Shown here: positions 11,049-62,781 of the stretch, in pieces
Numbering within the stretch: position 1 is the stretch's first letter
How the letters are laid out: each line of letters opens with the position of its first letter
DNA from: Rhodospirillaceae bacterium
Lineage (GTDB): Bacteria > Pseudomonadota > Alphaproteobacteria > Bin65
Reading direction: 5' to 3'
Assembly (NCBI GenBank): GCA_028819475.1
Contig: JAPPLJ010000025.1
Span: 62,001 to 126,000 of the forward strand
Length of the DNA: 64,000 bases
Program-made: the position numbers and the translations under genes
Notes under the pieces: model-generated
Seen by the model: the letters and a program-made list of their open reading frames with translations, nothing else
Databases searched by the model: none
What the model was told of the DNA's origin: nothing

Positions 11049-11682
11049 GGGCGATCCTTTCAATGCTCAGCAGGCGTCCGCCCGGATGGGTGACGCTGTC
11101 GAATTGCGTGATCGCCATTTTCCAACATTTAGTAGCTGAAATCAATTCTTTCTCAACATTTTGTCCCTTGAGGAGCAAAAACTGCGGGTTATCCACAGAC
11201 CAGCCGCTCGCCAGATCGAGCAGGTCCGGCAGCGGCGCCAGCGCCCGGGCGGTCACGACATCCGCTTCCGGCCGCGCCGGGCCCCGCGTGACGTCTTCGA
11301 TGCGCGCGGCGAGCACCGCGACATCGGCCGACAACTCCGCCGCCGTTGCCGAAAGAAACGCAGCCTTCCGCGTATCGGCTTCGATCAGCGTCACGTCCAG
11401 GTCCGGCCGCAGCAGCTTCAGGACCAGGCCGGGAAATCCCGCGCCGCTGCCGAGGTCGACGACGCGGCGCGCGCCCTTGCGCAGATGGACGGCGAGCTGG
11501 GCGCTGTCGGCGAAATGGCGCCGCCAGATATCGTCCAGCGTCGACGCCCCGACCAGGTTGATCCGGCGCTGCCAGCGACGCAGCGCCGTTTCGTAGCGGA
11601 CGAACCGCGCGCATGTTTCACGTGAAACACCGAACGCGGCGGCGAAGTCCTCCGGCCCGTAGCCGGTCCTGGGTCCGGGCAT
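11035..11682 (-). CDS. rsmG: 16S rRNA (guanine-N7) methyltransferase RsmG
   Basis: A 215-aa SAM-dependent methyltransferase (GidB) that makes m7G527 in 16S rRNA. The SAM motif VVDLGSGAGFPG is at about 74-85, with family motifs RRINLVG, WRRHFADS and FLLLKGQN in their normal places. It starts 37 nt after the mnmG stop and overlaps the parA start. Codons 19-23 are written inside a perfect parS sequence at 11614-11629, and an exact DnaA-box match lies at 11189-11197, so the gene body also carries replication and segregation signals. Confidence 0.97.
11189..11197 (+). other. exact DnaA-box match inside rsmG
   Basis: The nonamer TTATCCACA matches the DnaA consensus exactly and falls in the 3' part of rsmG, where it encodes part of SVDNPQ on the other strand. 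One exact match could arise by chance or from codon needs. It is one of only two exact copies I found in the window; the other is at 59710-59718. Confidence 0.4.
11614..11629. other. parS site within rsmG
   Basis: A perfect 16-bp parS palindrome, TGTTTCACGTGAAACA, identical to the Spo0J/ParB consensus. It is read through as codons for VSRET near the RsmG N-terminus. It lies about 0.6 kb upstream of parA and 1.4 kb upstream of parB, in the same operon. Confidence 0.96.
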
Positions 11683-26324: not shown

Positions 26325-27371
26325 CTATGCGCCGCCGGCCGCGAGCTGGCAGCCCGTCCGGTCCGCGGGGCACAGCCGGCCGCCGCTCTCCGCTTCGAGG
26401 CCGCCGCGCGCCAGGATGGTTTGCACCATGTCGGCAAGACCGCCAATGAAAGCAGGGTGGGTGCCGACCGCCGGTGCCCGGAGATAGGCCGGCACCCCGG
26501 CGTCTTCCGCCACCTTGCGGTATTCGATGTCGAGCTCGACCAGGGTTTCGGAATGTTCCGAGACGAAGGCGATCGGCGCAACCAGCACGGGCTTGCTCTC
26601 AGCGCCCGCACGGCGGATTTCATCTTCGGTCGACGGCCCGATCCATTTCAGCGGCCCGACCCGGCTCTGGTAGCAGACGGTGCTGTCGGCGGCGGCATCA
26701 CCAAGCGCTTCGGCAATCGCGGCAGCCGTCCGCTCGACCTGCCAGCGGTAGGGATCGCCGGCCGCGATCACCCTCTCCGGCAACCCGTGGGCCGAAAACA
26801 GGATGCGCGGCTGGTCTCCGTCATGGCCGGTCAGGGTTTCCGAGATCCTGTCCGCCATCGCCGCGATGAAGCCGGCGTTGACCGGGTAACAGCAGATGCC
26901 GCCGACCGCCGGGCCGAGTCCGGCCGAAGCGGCCGCGCCATTCCATTCCCGCACCGACGAGGCCGATGTCGTCGTCGAGAATTGGGGATAGAGCGGCAGC
27001 AGGACCGTGCGCCGGACGCCCCGCTGCGCCAGATCGCGCGCCACCGCCTCCGCTCGGCGGCCCCAATAGCGCATCGCGACATGGACCGACGGTGGCTCCG
27101 CCGCGCCGAACCGGTCCGCCAGCGCCGTTTCCAGCGCCGCAGCCTGGGCGTCGGTTTCTTCGTGGATCGGCGATTTGCCGCCGAGATGGACGTAGATGTC
27201 CTGCGCGACCGGCGCGCGGCGGCCCGCGATCAGCTTCGCCAGCAGCCAGCGCACCGGCTGCGGCGCGCCGACGATCGCCCGGTCGTTGAACAGGTTGAAC
27301 AGGAACGGCTTTACGGTGTCCGGCGCGGTCGGGCCGCCGAGATTGAACAGGATGACGGCAGTATCGCTCAC
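26325..27371 (-). CDS. hemH: ferrochelatase
   Basis: A 348-aa enzyme that inserts Fe2+ into protoporphyrin IX. It begins at a GTG (27371) whose GTGA overlaps the hemE stop. Family motifs are in order: VILFNLGGP, LLPLYPQFSTTT, the catalytic His in FSAHGLPERV, CYQSRVGPLKWIGPST and AFVSEHSETLVELDIEY. The C-terminal segment contains two Cys (GGRLCPADRTGC), as in some bacterial ferrochelatases that carry a 2Fe-2S cluster, but the full four-Cys set is not obvious. Confidence 0.96.
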   Translation of the reverse strand: MSDTAVILFNLGGPTAPDTVKPFLFNLFNDRAIVGAPQPVRWLLAKLIAGRRAPVAQDIYVHLGGKSPIHEETDAQAAALETALADRFGAAEPPSVHVAMRYWGRRAEAVARDLAQRGVRRTVLLPLYPQFSTTTSASSVREWNGAAASAGLGPAVGGICCYPVNAGFIAAMADRISETLTGHDGDQPRILFSAHGLPERVIAAGDPYRWQVERTAAAIAEALGDAAADSTVCYQSRVGPLKWIGPSTEDEIRRAGAESKPVLVAPIAFVSEHSETLVELDIEYRKVAEDAGVPAYLRAPAVGTHPAFIGGLADMVQTILARGGLEAESGGRLCPADRTGCQLAAGGA

Positions 27372-28396
27372 GCCGCGCCCCGCACGGCCGCTACCAGTTC
27401 CGCGACGTGATCCGGCGGCGTCTGCGGCACGATGCCGTGGCCGAGATTGAAGATATGCAGACCGCCGGCCAGGCCGGACACGATCTCCCCGATCCTTTCT
27501 TCGAGCGCCACGCCGCCGGCCGCCAGCAACAGCGGATCGAGATTGCCCTGGACCGGAACGGATTTCTGGATCGCCCGCGCCTGGGCGAGCGGGACGCCGG
27601 TATCGAGGCTGATGGCCGTGACGCCGGTCGCGGCGACGTAATCCCCGATCAGGCTGCCGGCGCCGCGCGGAAAGCCGATCACGGGCGCCGCCGGGTGCCG
27701 GGCGCGCAAGGCCTCGACGATCCGCCGGGTCGGGCCGACGACGTAGCGCCGGAACTCCGGCTCGGCCAGAACGCCGGCCCAGCTCTCGAAGATCTGCACG
27801 CAGTCCGCGCCGGCGTCGATCTGGCGCGACAGGTGCTCGACGGTTGCGTCCATCAGCATGTCGATCAGCCGCCCGAACCCCTCGGGATCGCGCCACATCC
27901 AGGCCTTGACCGTCTCAAAACTCCGACTGCTGCCGCCTTCCACGGCGTAGGTCGCCACCGTCCACGGGCCGCCGGCGAACCCGATCAGGGTCTTTTCCGG
28001 CGCCAGCGCCGCGCGGATCGCCGACACCGCCTCGTAGACCGGCGCACAATGCGCAACCGCCCGGTCCGGATCGAGCGCCGCCAGATCGCCGGCATTCCGC
28101 ACCGGGACGAGGATCGGACCGTGCCCGTCCTCGAAGCCGACGGTCATTCCCATGCCGTCCGGCACGACCAGAATGTCGGAAAACAGGATCGCCGCATCGA
28201 AATCGAAGCGCCGGACGGGCTGCAGGGTAATCTCGACCGCCAGGTCCGGCGTGTAGCACAGGTCGAGGAAGGACTCCGCGGATTGCCGCAAGCGCCGATA
28301 TTCCGGCAGGTAACGCCCGGCCTGGCGCATGAGCCAGACCGGCGCCGCCGCCGCCGGTTCGCCGGCCAGTACACGCATCATCGACTGATCGGTCAT
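27368..28396 (-). CDS. hemE: uroporphyrinogen decarboxylase
   Basis: A 342-aa enzyme that converts uroporphyrinogen III to coproporphyrinogen III. The signature PVWLMRQAGRYLPEYR is at about 20-35, with further family motifs ILFSDILVVPDGMGM, GFAGGPWTVATYAVEGG and FPRGAG. It is first of the leftward hemE-hemH-hemJ group and overlaps hemH. Its start faces the intergenic region proposed as oriC. In Caulobacter the origin lies directly beside hemE. Confidence 0.97.
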   Translation of the reverse strand: MTDQSMMRVLAGEPAAAAPVWLMRQAGRYLPEYRRLRQSAESFLDLCYTPDLAVEITLQPVRRFDFDAAILFSDILVVPDGMGMTVGFEDGHGPILVPVRNAGDLAALDPDRAVAHCAPVYEAVSAIRAALAPEKTLIGFAGGPWTVATYAVEGGSSRSFETVKAWMWRDPEGFGRLIDMLMDATVEHLSRQIDAGADCVQIFESWAGVLAEPEFRRYVVGPTRRIVEALRARHPAAPVIGFPRGAGSLIGDYVAATGVTAISLDTGVPLAQARAIQKSVPVQGNLDPLLLAAGGVALEERIGEIVSGLAGGLHIFNLGHGIVPQTPPDHVAELVAAVRGAA

Positions 28397-57621: not shown

Positions 57622-59583
57622 TCAGGCTTCGGCGTGGAACCAGTCGAACACGGTCCGGGCGACGGTCCGGCTGATCCCGTCGACGGTCTCGAGGTCGCTC
57701 AGGCCGGCCCGCTCGATATTGCGCACCGAGCCGAAATGGTTGAGCAGCGCCCGCTTGCGCCGGGCGCCGACGCCGGGAATGTCGTCGAGGGCCGAGCGGG
57801 TCCGGGCGTTGGCCCGCCGGGTGCGGTGAGCGCCGATAGCGTAGCGGTGCGCCTCGTCGCGCAGTCGCTGCAGGAAATACAGCACCGGATCGTTCGGCGG
57901 CAGGCCGAAGCTGCGGCCGTCGGCGGTATGAAAGGCCTCGCGGCCGGCGTTGCGGTCCGGCCCCTTCGAGACGCCGACCACGGGAAGATCGTCGATCCCC
58001 AGGTCGGCCAGCGCCGCCAGCGCGCTGCCCAGCTGGCCGCGGCCGCCGTCGACCAGCACCAGATCGGGCCAGATCCCTGTTTCGCGCGCCGGATCCTCCC
58101 GGATCGCCCGGCTGAAGCGGCGGGTCAGCACCTCGCGCATCATGGCGTAGTCGTCGCCCGGCGCCAAGCTCGTCGAGCGGATGTTTAATTTCCGGTATGC
58201 GGTCTTGATCAGCCCGGCGGGGCCGGCGGCGATCATGCCGCCGACGGCGTCGGTGCCGGAGACGTGGCTGTTGTCGTAGACCTCGATCCGCTCCGGCGGC
58301 GCGTCCAGGCCGAAGGCGTCGGCCACCCCGTCGAGCAGCCGGCGCTGCGAGGCGTTTTCCGACAGCCGGCGGGTGAGCGCCGCCTTCGCGTTGGCCAGCG
58401 CGTGCTCGATCAGCTTGCGCTTGTCGCCGCGCCGGGGCACGGCGAGCTCGACCTTCCGCCCGGCCCTGGCGCCCAGCGCCGCGGCGAGCAGCGCCTCGTC
58501 GGCGACCGGCAGACTGGTCAGGACCAGGCAGGGCGGCGGCTTGTTGTCGTAGAACTGGCCCAGGAAGGCGGCCAGAATATCCGCGTCGTCGGCGGACTTG
58601 TCGTGGCGCGGATAGTAGGCCCGGTTGCCATAGTTGCGGCCGGCGCGGAAGAAGAACACCTGGATGCAGCTGTGCTCGCCTTCGCGCCACACCGCGACGA
58701 CGTCGGCATCGTCCGGCACCGGGAGGTTGATGTCCTGGCGCGTCTGGATATGGGCGAGCGCCTGGATGCGGTCGCGCAGATAGGCGGCGGTTTCGAATTC
58801 CAGGGCCTCGGCGGCCTCCTCCATGCGCCCGGCGAGGTCGCGCTGGATCGCGCCGTCGCGGCCGGAGAGAAACGCCTCGGCCTGGGCGACCAGGGCGCCG
58901 TAGTCCGCTTCGCCGATCCGCCCGACGCAGGGCGCGCTGCACCGCTTGATCTGGAACAGCAGGCAGGGCCGGGTGCGCGACGAGAACATCGAATCGCTGC
59001 ACGAGCGCAGCAGGAAGGCCCGTTCCAGGGCGTTCAGCGTGCGGTTGACGGCGCCGGCCGAGGCGAAGGGGCCGAAATAGGACCCCGGCTCGCGCCGGCT
59101 GCCGCGGTATTTGGTGATGCGCGGCCAGCGGCCCGGCTTCTCCGGCGCGGCGCGCGGGTCTTTTTTGCCGATCCGGATATAGGGAAAGGACTTGTCGTCG
59201 CGTAATAGGATATTATACCGGGGGCGGAGCCGCTTGATCAGGTTCGATTCGAGCAGCAGCGCCTCGACCTCGGTATGGGTCTCGACGATCTCGAGCAGGG
59301 CCGTTTCCGCGACCATGCGGCGCAGCCGTTCCGGCAGCTTGGCCGGCGTCGCATAGCTGGCGACGCGGCGGCGCAGGTTGCGCGCCTTGCCGACATAAAG
59401 CGGCTCGCCGCGGCGGTCGATCATGCGGTAGACGCCGGGACTTGCGGAGAGCCGGGGCAGCTCGCCCTTCAGGTAAGCGGCGCCGGCGGCGAGGGAGGCG
59501 GGCACGGCCCGGTCCGGGGCTGCCGCAGGAATCACCGGTGCGCGTTCCTCCCGCGCCGCTTTCGGTCTGGTTTTCGACGCCAT
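57622..59583 (-). CDS. uvrC: excinuclease ABC subunit C
   Basis: A 653-aa nuclease of nucleotide excision repair that cuts on both sides of the lesion. It has an N-terminal GIY-YIG domain (PGVYRMIDRRGEPLYVGKA, about 48-66), a Cys-cluster region (CSDSMFSSRTRPCLLFQIKRC parts), a UVR domain, an RNase H-like domain (DNSHVSGTDAVGGM) and two C-terminal helix-hairpin-helix units (PGVGARRKRALLNHFGS). The first 40 residues are a basic, Ala-rich extension. Leftward, upstream of pgsA. Confidence 0.97.
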   Translation of the reverse strand: MASKTRPKAAREERAPVIPAAAPDRAVPASLAAGAAYLKGELPRLSASPGVYRMIDRRGEPLYVGKARNLRRRVASYATPAKLPERLRRMVAETALLEIVETHTEVEALLLESNLIKRLRPRYNILLRDDKSFPYIRIGKKDPRAAPEKPGRWPRITKYRGSRREPGSYFGPFASAGAVNRTLNALERAFLLRSCSDSMFSSRTRPCLLFQIKRCSAPCVGRIGEADYGALVAQAEAFLSGRDGAIQRDLAGRMEEAAEALEFETAAYLRDRIQALAHIQTRQDINLPVPDDADVVAVWREGEHSCIQVFFFRAGRNYGNRAYYPRHDKSADDADILAAFLGQFYDNKPPPCLVLTSLPVADEALLAAALGARAGRKVELAVPRRGDKRKLIEHALANAKAALTRRLSENASQRRLLDGVADAFGLDAPPERIEVYDNSHVSGTDAVGGMIAAGPAGLIKTAYRKLNIRSTSLAPGDDYAMMREVLTRRFSRAIREDPARETGIWPDLVLVDGGRGQLGSALAALADLGIDDLPVVGVSKGPDRNAGREAFHTADGRSFGLPPNDPVLYFLQRLRDEAHRYAIGAHRTRRANARTRSALDDIPGVGARRKRALLNHFGSVRNIERAGLSDLETVDGISRTVARTVFDWFHAEA

Positions 59584-59695
59584 GGCGCTAATGTTGCGCC
59601 CGAAACCGGCGGCGTCAATCGACCGCGGCGCCGCCCGATCGGGCTAGCCGATTGAATCGGCAACGATTTTTCGGTGCGGTACCGGGCGCCGGCGC

Positions 59696-59833
59696 TTGTC
59701 CACGAACTCTGTGGATAAGTCTGTGGGACAACCTTTGGCGGCGCGGAGATTCCGCAGAATCCCGCGTCGCGGAAATCATTGCCGGTTTATTGGGCAGAAT
59801 CGCCTAACGCATTGAAAATTAATATTTATTAGG
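59696..59833. other. DnaA-box cluster and AT-rich tract, oriC-like
   Basis: In the 359-bp gap between folB and uvrC (59584-59942), an exact DnaA box lies on the minus strand at 59710-59718 (TGTGGATAA on plus). It is flanked by TTGTCCACG at 59696-59704 (two mismatches) and TGTGGGACA at 59722-59730. About 80 bp further is an AT-rich run, TTGAAAATTAATATTTATTA (about 59813-59832). Beyond it are the palindromes CGTCGCGACG (59835-59844) and ACCGGTTCTAAACCGGT (59871-59887). No gene is seen. It could be an origin, a DnaA-titration or regulatory site for uvrC, or partly a folB terminator. Confidence 0.5.
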
Positions 59834-59942
59834 CCGTCGCGACGTCGCGGTTCCGTAACGAGACTGGCAGACCGGTTCTAAACCGGTACAGGCGGCGGCT
59901 TCGGACAGCGTGTGAACAAACGGCGTAACCCACGACGCCACA

Positions 59943-60392
59943 TCACTTTTCCGGCCGGCCGCGGCGCGGCCGTTCGATCTCGACGCCGACGGCGCCGGTG
60001 TTGGCGAAGACGTCGAGCTTCTCGACGCGGATGCGGGCGGCGCGCACGCGCGGGTCGTCCAGGCACATGGCCGCCAGCGCTTCGGCCAGCGTCTCGACCA
60101 GATTGTAGTGCCGGGCGTCGACAATGGCGCAGGCGCGGTCGACGATCTGCTCGTAGCTCACGGTGTCTTCGAGCCGGTCGGTCGCGCCCGCGGCGTCGTC
60201 GGCGATCGCCAGGTCGATGTTCAGCCGGACCCGCTGGGGCGCATCGCGCTCGTGGCGGTAGACGCCGATATTGCAGCTCAGGACCAGGTCGCGCACGAAG
60301 ATGTGGCGCTGCCCGCCCAGCGTGTCGGCGAGCCGCGGGGAATCGGAGCCCGAGGCCAGGTGCGGAACCATCGCTTCAAGCGGTCGCGTCAT
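59943..60392 (-). CDS. folB: dihydroneopterin aldolase
   Basis: A 149-aa enzyme that cleaves dihydroneopterin in folate synthesis. Motifs include HIFVRDLVLSCNIGVYRHERDAPQ (start of the fold), DTVSYEQIVD, HYNLVETLAEALA with the active-site Glu, and VRVEKLD-type RIRVEKLDVF, which gives the conserved Lys. About 28 extra N-terminal residues precede the core; an internal ATG would shorten them. It lies 53 nt downstream of a pteridine-reductase-like SDR gene. Confidence 0.95.
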   Translation of the reverse strand: MTRPLEAMVPHLASGSDSPRLADTLGGQRHIFVRDLVLSCNIGVYRHERDAPQRVRLNIDLAIADDAAGATDRLEDTVSYEQIVDRACAIVDARHYNLVETLAEALAAMCLDDPRVRAARIRVEKLDVFANTGAVGVEIERPRRGRPEK

Positions 60393-62610: not shown

Positions 62611-62704
62611 GGAAGACCGGCGCGGACGGGCGCCTCGCCAACCCGGTCAGGTCCGGAAGGAAGCAGCCGTAACGAGTTTTGCCCGGGTCGCTGTCCGGTC
62701 TTCC
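62611..62704 (+). ncRNA. ffs: signal recognition particle 4.5S RNA
   Basis: A 94-nt RNA with the universal SRP domain IV text GGTCAGGTCCGGAAGGAAGC at 62645-62664. The ends GGAAGACCGG (62611-62620) and CCGGTCTTCC (62695-62704) are perfect complements that close the hairpin. It pairs with Ffh to target membrane proteins. The place directly before dnaX is common in alphaproteobacteria and other bacteria. Boundaries come from the closing stem and the upstream -10. Confidence 0.96.
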
Positions 62705-62781
62705 ACCGTTTCCCTTCGCGTCCGCTCGACGGGCACCCTGGCCGGCGCGGCGCGGCAGCGCGGCGACGCCTCCGGAGTTCT

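Follow-up and report, generated by a model that had tools for sequence, protein, structure and literature searches.

The DNA analysed here, referred to throughout as the window, is a stretch of 64 kb from a 4.48-Mb assembly in 72 contigs (G000:C25:62001-126000). In window coordinates the intergenic gap between uvrC and folB occupies 59584-59942 (359 bp), from the end of one gene to the end of the other. The genes and the features recognised in the gap are as follows:

57622-59583, minus strand: uvrC (excinuclease ABC subunit C; Pfam UvrC_RNaseH_dom, GIY-YIG and UVR), directly downstream of the site
59696-59704, plus strand: DnaA box I, TTGTCCACG, recognised by sequence and inverted relative to boxes II and III
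59710-59718, minus strand: DnaA box II, an exact TTATCCACA, reading TGTGGATAA on the plus strand and starting 14 bp after box I
59722-59730, minus strand: DnaA box III, the degenerate TGTCCCACA, reading TGTGGGACA on the plus strand and starting 12 bp after box II
59781-59795, no strand: inverted repeat GCCGGTTTATTGGGC, the window copy of a conserved TTGCCTA-(A/T)-GGCAA palindrome
59805-59817, minus strand: IHF-like site TTTCAATGCGTTA, matching 8 of 9 consensus positions
59815-59831, no strand: A+T-only tract, 17 bp pure, beside the IHF-like site
59911-59919, minus strand: distal DnaA-like box TTGTTCACA, recognised by sequence, reading TGTGAACAA on the plus strand and located 201 bp from box II
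59943-60392, minus strand: folB (Pfam FolB), the upstream neighbour, which is not found in this place in all relatives

Boxes I to III all fall within 35 bp, and this core trio lies 113-147 bp before the uvrC start codon. The original prediction had pointed to exactly these three 9-mers between folB and uvrC, with the exact box on the minus strand, and the sequence bears it out; the palindromes that it mentioned are present as short ones. Its 20-bp AT run also exists, with the length corrected to 17 bp of pure A+T, or to 21 bp (59811-59831) if one G is tolerated, and the fourth box, TTGTTCACA, had been absent from its list. The boxes were further said to be of better quality than those of the hemE region, and this held, a single box with one mismatch being found within 1.5 kb of the genome's own hemE. 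The exact TTATCCACA occurs in 2 copies in the 64-kb window and in 8 copies in the whole assembly. A scan of 59500-60100 for promoters and terminators returned no sigma-70-like promoter and one terminator-like hairpin, at chance level. CtrA sites have the form TTAA-N7-TTAA, and none was seen by eye in the A+T tract of the gap. Over the whole window, ARAGORN found no tRNA, and the sole Rfam match at the gathering threshold was a bacterial small SRP RNA (RF00169, 63.8 bits; 62611-62707, plus strand) just upstream of dnaX.

The arrangement of the trio was compared with that of the DnaA-reactivating sequences (DARS) of E. coli K-12, whose regions were fetched and whose cores were recognised by their position and three-box arrangement. 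DnaA reactivation at DARS was worked out in E. coli, and the original DARS paper is reportedly that of Fujimitsu in 2009. The DARS1 core consists of TTATCCACT on the plus strand, then after 14 bp TTATCCACA on the minus strand and after 12 bp TAATACACA, also on the minus strand; in DARS2 the corresponding boxes are TTATTCACC (plus), CTATCCACA (minus) and TTCTTCACA (minus), again at 14 and 12 bp. The window trio is identical to both cores in its orientations and in its start-to-start spacing of 14 and 12 bp. A passage of one paper describes the DARS core as three boxes, with box I opposite to boxes II and III and with a spacing common to both DARS (PMC5742627), and a review section calls the head-to-head arrangement of boxes I and II a characteristic of DARS that is essential to their function (PMC10380432). 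The spacing was not imposed: of 43 distinct regions upstream of uvrC that contain an exact box II, 37 have GTGG at +15 relative to this box and 20 have CACA at -7, and every other offset of these tetramers occurred at most once. Because CACA is kept in 20/43 regions and GTGG in 37/43, box III is the weakest of the three boxes.

Conservation in relatives, proposed earlier as a check on the boxes, was assessed upstream of uvrC. The gene is present in 40 of 41 genomes; 30 loci were retrieved and 29 used, L018 being dropped as its contig ends at the gene. An exact TTATCCACA lies no more than 1.5 kb before uvrC in 17/29 genomes, against 0.13 expected and at most 2 in 300 simulations, and a three-box score of at least 22 was reached at 21/29 loci; G014 and G022 scored 15, which is background level. 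A TTGTNCACN box ~200 bp further upstream is common among the 29 loci without being universal. All 7 members of the genus among the sampled genomes have a core score of 24-25, and the maximum in 400 simulated sequences was 19. The boxes are kept, which is the opposite of the non-conservation named earlier as the outcome that would speak against them. At 80 named loci of the class, an exact box was found within 1.2 kb of uvrC in 27. Scored at a cut-off of at least 22 in up to 800 bp (the largest of 400 simulated sequences being 19; less than 800 bp for L075, L084 and L095), the site is present at uvrC in 25/38 loci of Rhodospirillales-like bacteria, Acetobacterales and Rhodobacterales and in 0/42 loci of Rhizobiales, Caulobacterales, Sphingomonadales and Pelagibacterales/Holosporales, the latter count referring to the stretch before uvrC only. 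The orders were assigned by hand from record titles, with two MAGs titled Rhodobiaceae in the mixed group; the Caulobacter, Rhizobium/Agrobacterium and Sphingomonas loci examined are without the site at uvrC. A two-box spacing pattern formed by box II and the distal box was found in 81 of 385 genomes of the class (reversed control 6, counted by eye), and uvrC lies just downstream in 26 of the 30 loci fetched for it. In both sampled genomes of genus g209 (L228/L270 in G254:C42; G333:C142) this pattern occurs twice, at uvrC and elsewhere, and a second DARS-like site may be present in that genus. Upstream of the uvrC site, the neighbours at 10 loci were FolB (2), a short-chain dehydrogenase (2), peptidase M19 (1), and a nuclease/phosphatase (1), with no identity assigned at the other 4. 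The site goes with uvrC and is kept at this gene while the upstream neighbour changes.

A strict core pattern, CACAN3TTATCCACAN6GTGGA, was also searched, with the reversed pattern as control, the control counts being read from tables by eye. It is present in 70/385 alphaproteobacterial genomes, with 72 matches, and the reversed pattern in 0/385. As judged by distance and strand, 57 of the 72 matches are within ~0.7 kb upstream of uvrC and on its strand: tblastn placed 25 of 30 loci there, coordinates another 19, and the fetching of 23 further loci 13 more. The other 15 lie away from uvrC, and a Pfam search of 20 proteins neighbouring them revealed no recurring gene. One strict core, in G016 (L282), is near a CDP-alcohol phosphatidyltransferase; at L293 (G142:C2, ~773 kb) another is found ~190 bp after the end of the uvrB frame, with a similar second match ~76 kb off on the same contig. 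Across the phylum the strict core is present in 107/299 genomes and its reverse in 0/299, and the 29 phylum loci examined divide into 16 before uvrB, 2 before uvrC (both from this class) and 11 beside neither gene. Read as its reverse complement, the DARS1 core of E. coli fits the strict pattern. The search thus picks up the established DARS1 location in one lineage and the location at uvrC in the other, without being confined to these two.

Further elements became visible when 68 uvrC sites were aligned on box II, each selected for an exact box II with box I matched at +15. On the box-III side, an IHF consensus that begins near -99 is matched at 8 or more of its 9 positions in 48/68 sites, compared with at most 8/68 in same-strand control windows; in the window itself the IHF-like site is the best place in the region, the next best matching 6 positions. 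The palindrome TTGCCTA-(A/T)-GGCAA occupies the stretch near -79 to -62, where the Fis consensus is matched at 7 of 7 positions in 54/68 sites and in at most 3/68 in control windows; the Fis consensus was applied after the palindrome had been seen, and these counts describe the motif, not its binder. The window copy matches 6 of 7, a score also reached by three other places in its own gap region. An A+T-rich stretch is found at the matching place across the 68 sites. The genome encodes an IHF alpha subunit. No Fis was recognised in it: four HTH_8 matches fall in frames of 499, 481, 201 and 108 aa, the shortest of which reads by eye as a HigA-type antitoxin. In several two-box matches of the class, GTCAAG was seen by eye shortly after the distal box; its reverse complement, CTTGAC, resembles a -35 element pointing away from uvrC.

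The gap had been proposed to be possibly the true origin of replication, and several observations are in keeping with this. Besides the three boxes and the A+T tract, the window contains parB, parA and rsmG, near 9-12 kb, as well as hemE at 27368-28396; the surroundings of this hemE contain only the one imperfect box, and orientation-corrected GC3 skew does not change sign between the site and parB in either of the genus members examined. Inside rsmG, beside parA and parB, lies the palindrome TGTTTCACGTGAAACA (11614-11629), the parS motif. The distance from the site to hemE is ~31 kb in G000 and ~30 kb in G001. Contig skew and orientation-corrected GC3 skew in the own genome are weak, with no clear switch at the site and with hemE unmarked too. 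The GC3 skew difference (plus minus minus genes) was +0.042 to the left and +0.066 to the right of the site in G001, and -0.039 and +0.012 in G000, where the errors are equally large. On both contigs (G000:C25 and G001:C33) the single sign extends from the uvrC site over hemE as far as parB, past which the skew fades, a course that clearly fits neither uvrC nor hemE as the origin.

GC skew was also sampled in 20-kb pieces in relatives whose copy of the site lies on one large contig (single contigs for G019, G177 and G308; G024 is in three contigs), with 17 samples for G177 and 20 for each of the others. In G019 (uvrC at 2.51 Mb, hemE at 3.60 Mb) the skew minimum was at or near hemE. In G024 (1.81 and 3.01 Mb) the cumulative minimum fell between 2.86 and 3.07 Mb; this genome has a weak skew, with values near zero in the samples around uvrC (1.80 and 2.02 Mb). 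In G308 (4.03 and 0.63 Mb) the sign changed from minus to plus across the hemE sample, and in G177 (3.19 and 0.04 Mb) the minimum lay between the hemE sample and 0.26 Mb. The site is 0.79-1.20 Mb from hemE on these four chromosomes of 3.74-4.36 Mb. G024 and G177 carry the strict core, G019 and G308 the two-box pattern only, G019 having a core score of 20. A fifth chromosome, G038, had a skew too flat to judge. In four of the five relatives' chromosomes sampled, the uvrC site is separate from oriC, G038 being ambiguous. For G019, G024, G177 and G308 we rejected an origin at the uvrC site on the sampled GC skew, which has its minimum at or near hemE and not at uvrC; the skew of the own genus was too weak to decide. 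That the uvrC site is the oriC of this genus appears very improbable to us: homologous sites lie inside a replichore in the four relatives, neither G001 nor G000 has a clear GC3 skew switch at the site, and the trio is in the DARS arrangement. The poor hemE boxes are not decisive here, the hemE locus of G308 being without an exact box although the skew flips there.

The remaining explanations differ in what DnaA would do at the site. The shortness of single 9-mers and the weakness of box III would suit a trio that arose by chance or survives as a relic, the latter having also been offered in the original prediction. We give this practically no credence: conservation refutes it, with 17/29 loci against 0.13 expected, the strict core in 70/385 genomes against 0/385 for its reverse, and core scores of 24-25 in 7/7 genus members against a simulated maximum of 19. 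The suggestion that the gap is a DnaA-titrating or repair-related control site for uvrC is right in its direction, but the anatomy is more specific, being that of the DARS three-box core. Overall the original prediction was confirmed in what it observed and partly supported in its interpretation, the origin reading finding no support in the relatives and the relic reading being rejected.

Two forms of control other than DARS activity have to be weighed. The boxes could belong to a DnaA-controlled uvrC promoter, repressing or tuning the gene and coupling nucleotide excision repair to replication without taking part in nucleotide exchange on DnaA. The placement of the core 113-147 bp before the uvrC start agrees with this, as do the constancy of the site at uvrC when the upstream neighbour changes (10 loci) and the repression of E. 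coli uvrB via the DARS1 boxes, reported in a passage of PMC6015884. However, a plain repressor needs no DARS triple geometry, IHF site, palindrome or ~200-bp distal box; moreover, the distance from box II to uvrC is variable (-56 to -306 of the alignment start), 15/72 core matches in the class are away from uvrC, and 59500-60100 contains no sigma-70-like promoter. We hold promoter control as the sole function to be unlikely, though by no means negligible. A datA-like or titration site, at which the stretch from the core to the distal box, bent by IHF, would collect ATP-DnaA and either hydrolyse the ATP or withhold the protein from the origin, seems to us improbable. The IHF-like site does lie between DnaA boxes, as that of datA lies between its boxes 2 and 3, and the site of the own genus is near hemE just as E. 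coli datA is near oriC (both from sections of PMC4585315); yet boxes I and II form a head-to-head pair, which the review section regards as characteristic of DARS (PMC10380432), and hemE is 0.8-1.2 Mb away from the site on each of the four chromosomes whose positions were resolved.

Our preferred reading, which we consider rather likely, is that the folB-uvrC gap carries a control site of the DARS type, and such a site would probably serve the control of replication timing rather than act as the origin itself. This reading builds on four observations, namely the anatomy of the gap, its conservation, a geometry identical to that of DARS1 and DARS2, and the off-origin position in four relatives; from them we infer the binding of DnaA and IHF, the release of ADP and the effects on initiation and on uvrC. 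In the proposed mechanism, two DnaA molecules would sit head to head on boxes I and II, with a third on box III. IHF would bend the DNA at 59805-59817, and the palindrome at 59781-59795 would be bound by a factor in place of Fis. The bend, the palindrome and the distal box at 201 bp are envisaged to help assemble ADP-DnaA on the core, where it would release its ADP and be recharged with ATP for the next start at a separate origin. Given a core 113-147 bp upstream of the uvrC start codon, DnaA bound to it would probably also adjust the transcription of uvrC. DARS1 offers a parallel at the uvrB promoter of E. coli, which it overlaps and which DnaA represses, according to a passage of PMC6015884. 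Several points count against the DARS reading. Fis is not recognised in the own genome, the Fis-like match of the window is 6 of 7 and box III is poor. The core faces uvrC the opposite way to that in which DARS1 faces uvrB, 15/72 class matches are not at uvrC and 11/29 phylum loci have neither gene. Finally, the own-genus site is only ~31 kb from hemE, the skew of G024 is weak and G038 is ambiguous. The short distance to hemE in the own genus speaks against a strict need for a mid-arm place.

We are evenly divided on a broader proposal, that much of the Alphaproteobacteria may control DnaA by means of a third type of DARS with a fixed place before uvrC, in which a core of the E. coli type is combined with a bend made by IHF, a distal box and a palindrome to which a factor other than Fis binds. 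If this is true, the chemistry of DARS would be older than the Gammaproteobacteria, and uvrB in the gamma class and uvrC in the alpha class would be two parallel places at which the recharging of DnaA is linked to excision repair. This recharging could then be put to the test in a class in which the customary cell-cycle models seem to be without a site at uvrC, and the palindrome binder would be the factor to look for. Origin finders that rely on DnaA boxes could pick the uvrC site wrongly: no strong skew inflection was seen by the authors of the Rhodospirillum centenum genome (PMC2890560), and in a Rhodobacteraceae survey the choice among alternative origin predictions was made by hand (PMC6699656). 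The DARS2 core has been called specific to gammaproteobacteria related to E. coli in a passage of PMC4245941, and a review section mentions DARS-like sequences in many proteobacteria (PMC10380432). In excerpts of the open-licence PMC literature we found no alphaproteobacterial DARS or uvrC-linked DnaA site; an earlier mention is possible.

Among the known systems, the alphaproteobacterial oriC at hemE likewise combines DnaA boxes with an A+T-rich stretch, and hemE lies in the same window, but it is there or nearby, and not at uvrC, that the four relatives have their skew minimum. In datA of E. coli, DnaA boxes flank an IHF site in non-coding DNA (as described in a section of PMC4585315), as they do here with the IHF-like site; datA is set apart by description, not by sequence, the DARS core being described for DARS and not for datA in the sections cited. 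DARS2, in the rppH-mutH region of E. coli, has the same core and, 197 bp from box II in the direction of box III, one more exact box. The distal box of the window is oriented as box II, whereas the 197-bp box of DARS2 is opposite. DARS2 needs its IHF and Fis sites, both in a regulatory stretch of ~400 bp (a passage of PMC5742627); these two sites are known here from the review's description, the sequence comparison with DARS2 covering the core and the box at 197 bp. DARS1, in the bioD-uvrB gap, shares the three-box core, its orientation and the 14/12 spacing, and it also precedes a UvrABC gene. In E. coli the adjoining gene is uvrB and box III is nearest to it, whereas in the window the gene is uvrC and box I is nearest, so that the orientation of the core relative to the gene is opposite in the two. 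The flank beside the last box is required for full activity of DARS1 (stated in a part of PMC4585315). DARS1 promotes ADP release without added factors, as a passage of PMC5742627 has it, whereas sites of the window type keep an IHF-like site and the palindrome.
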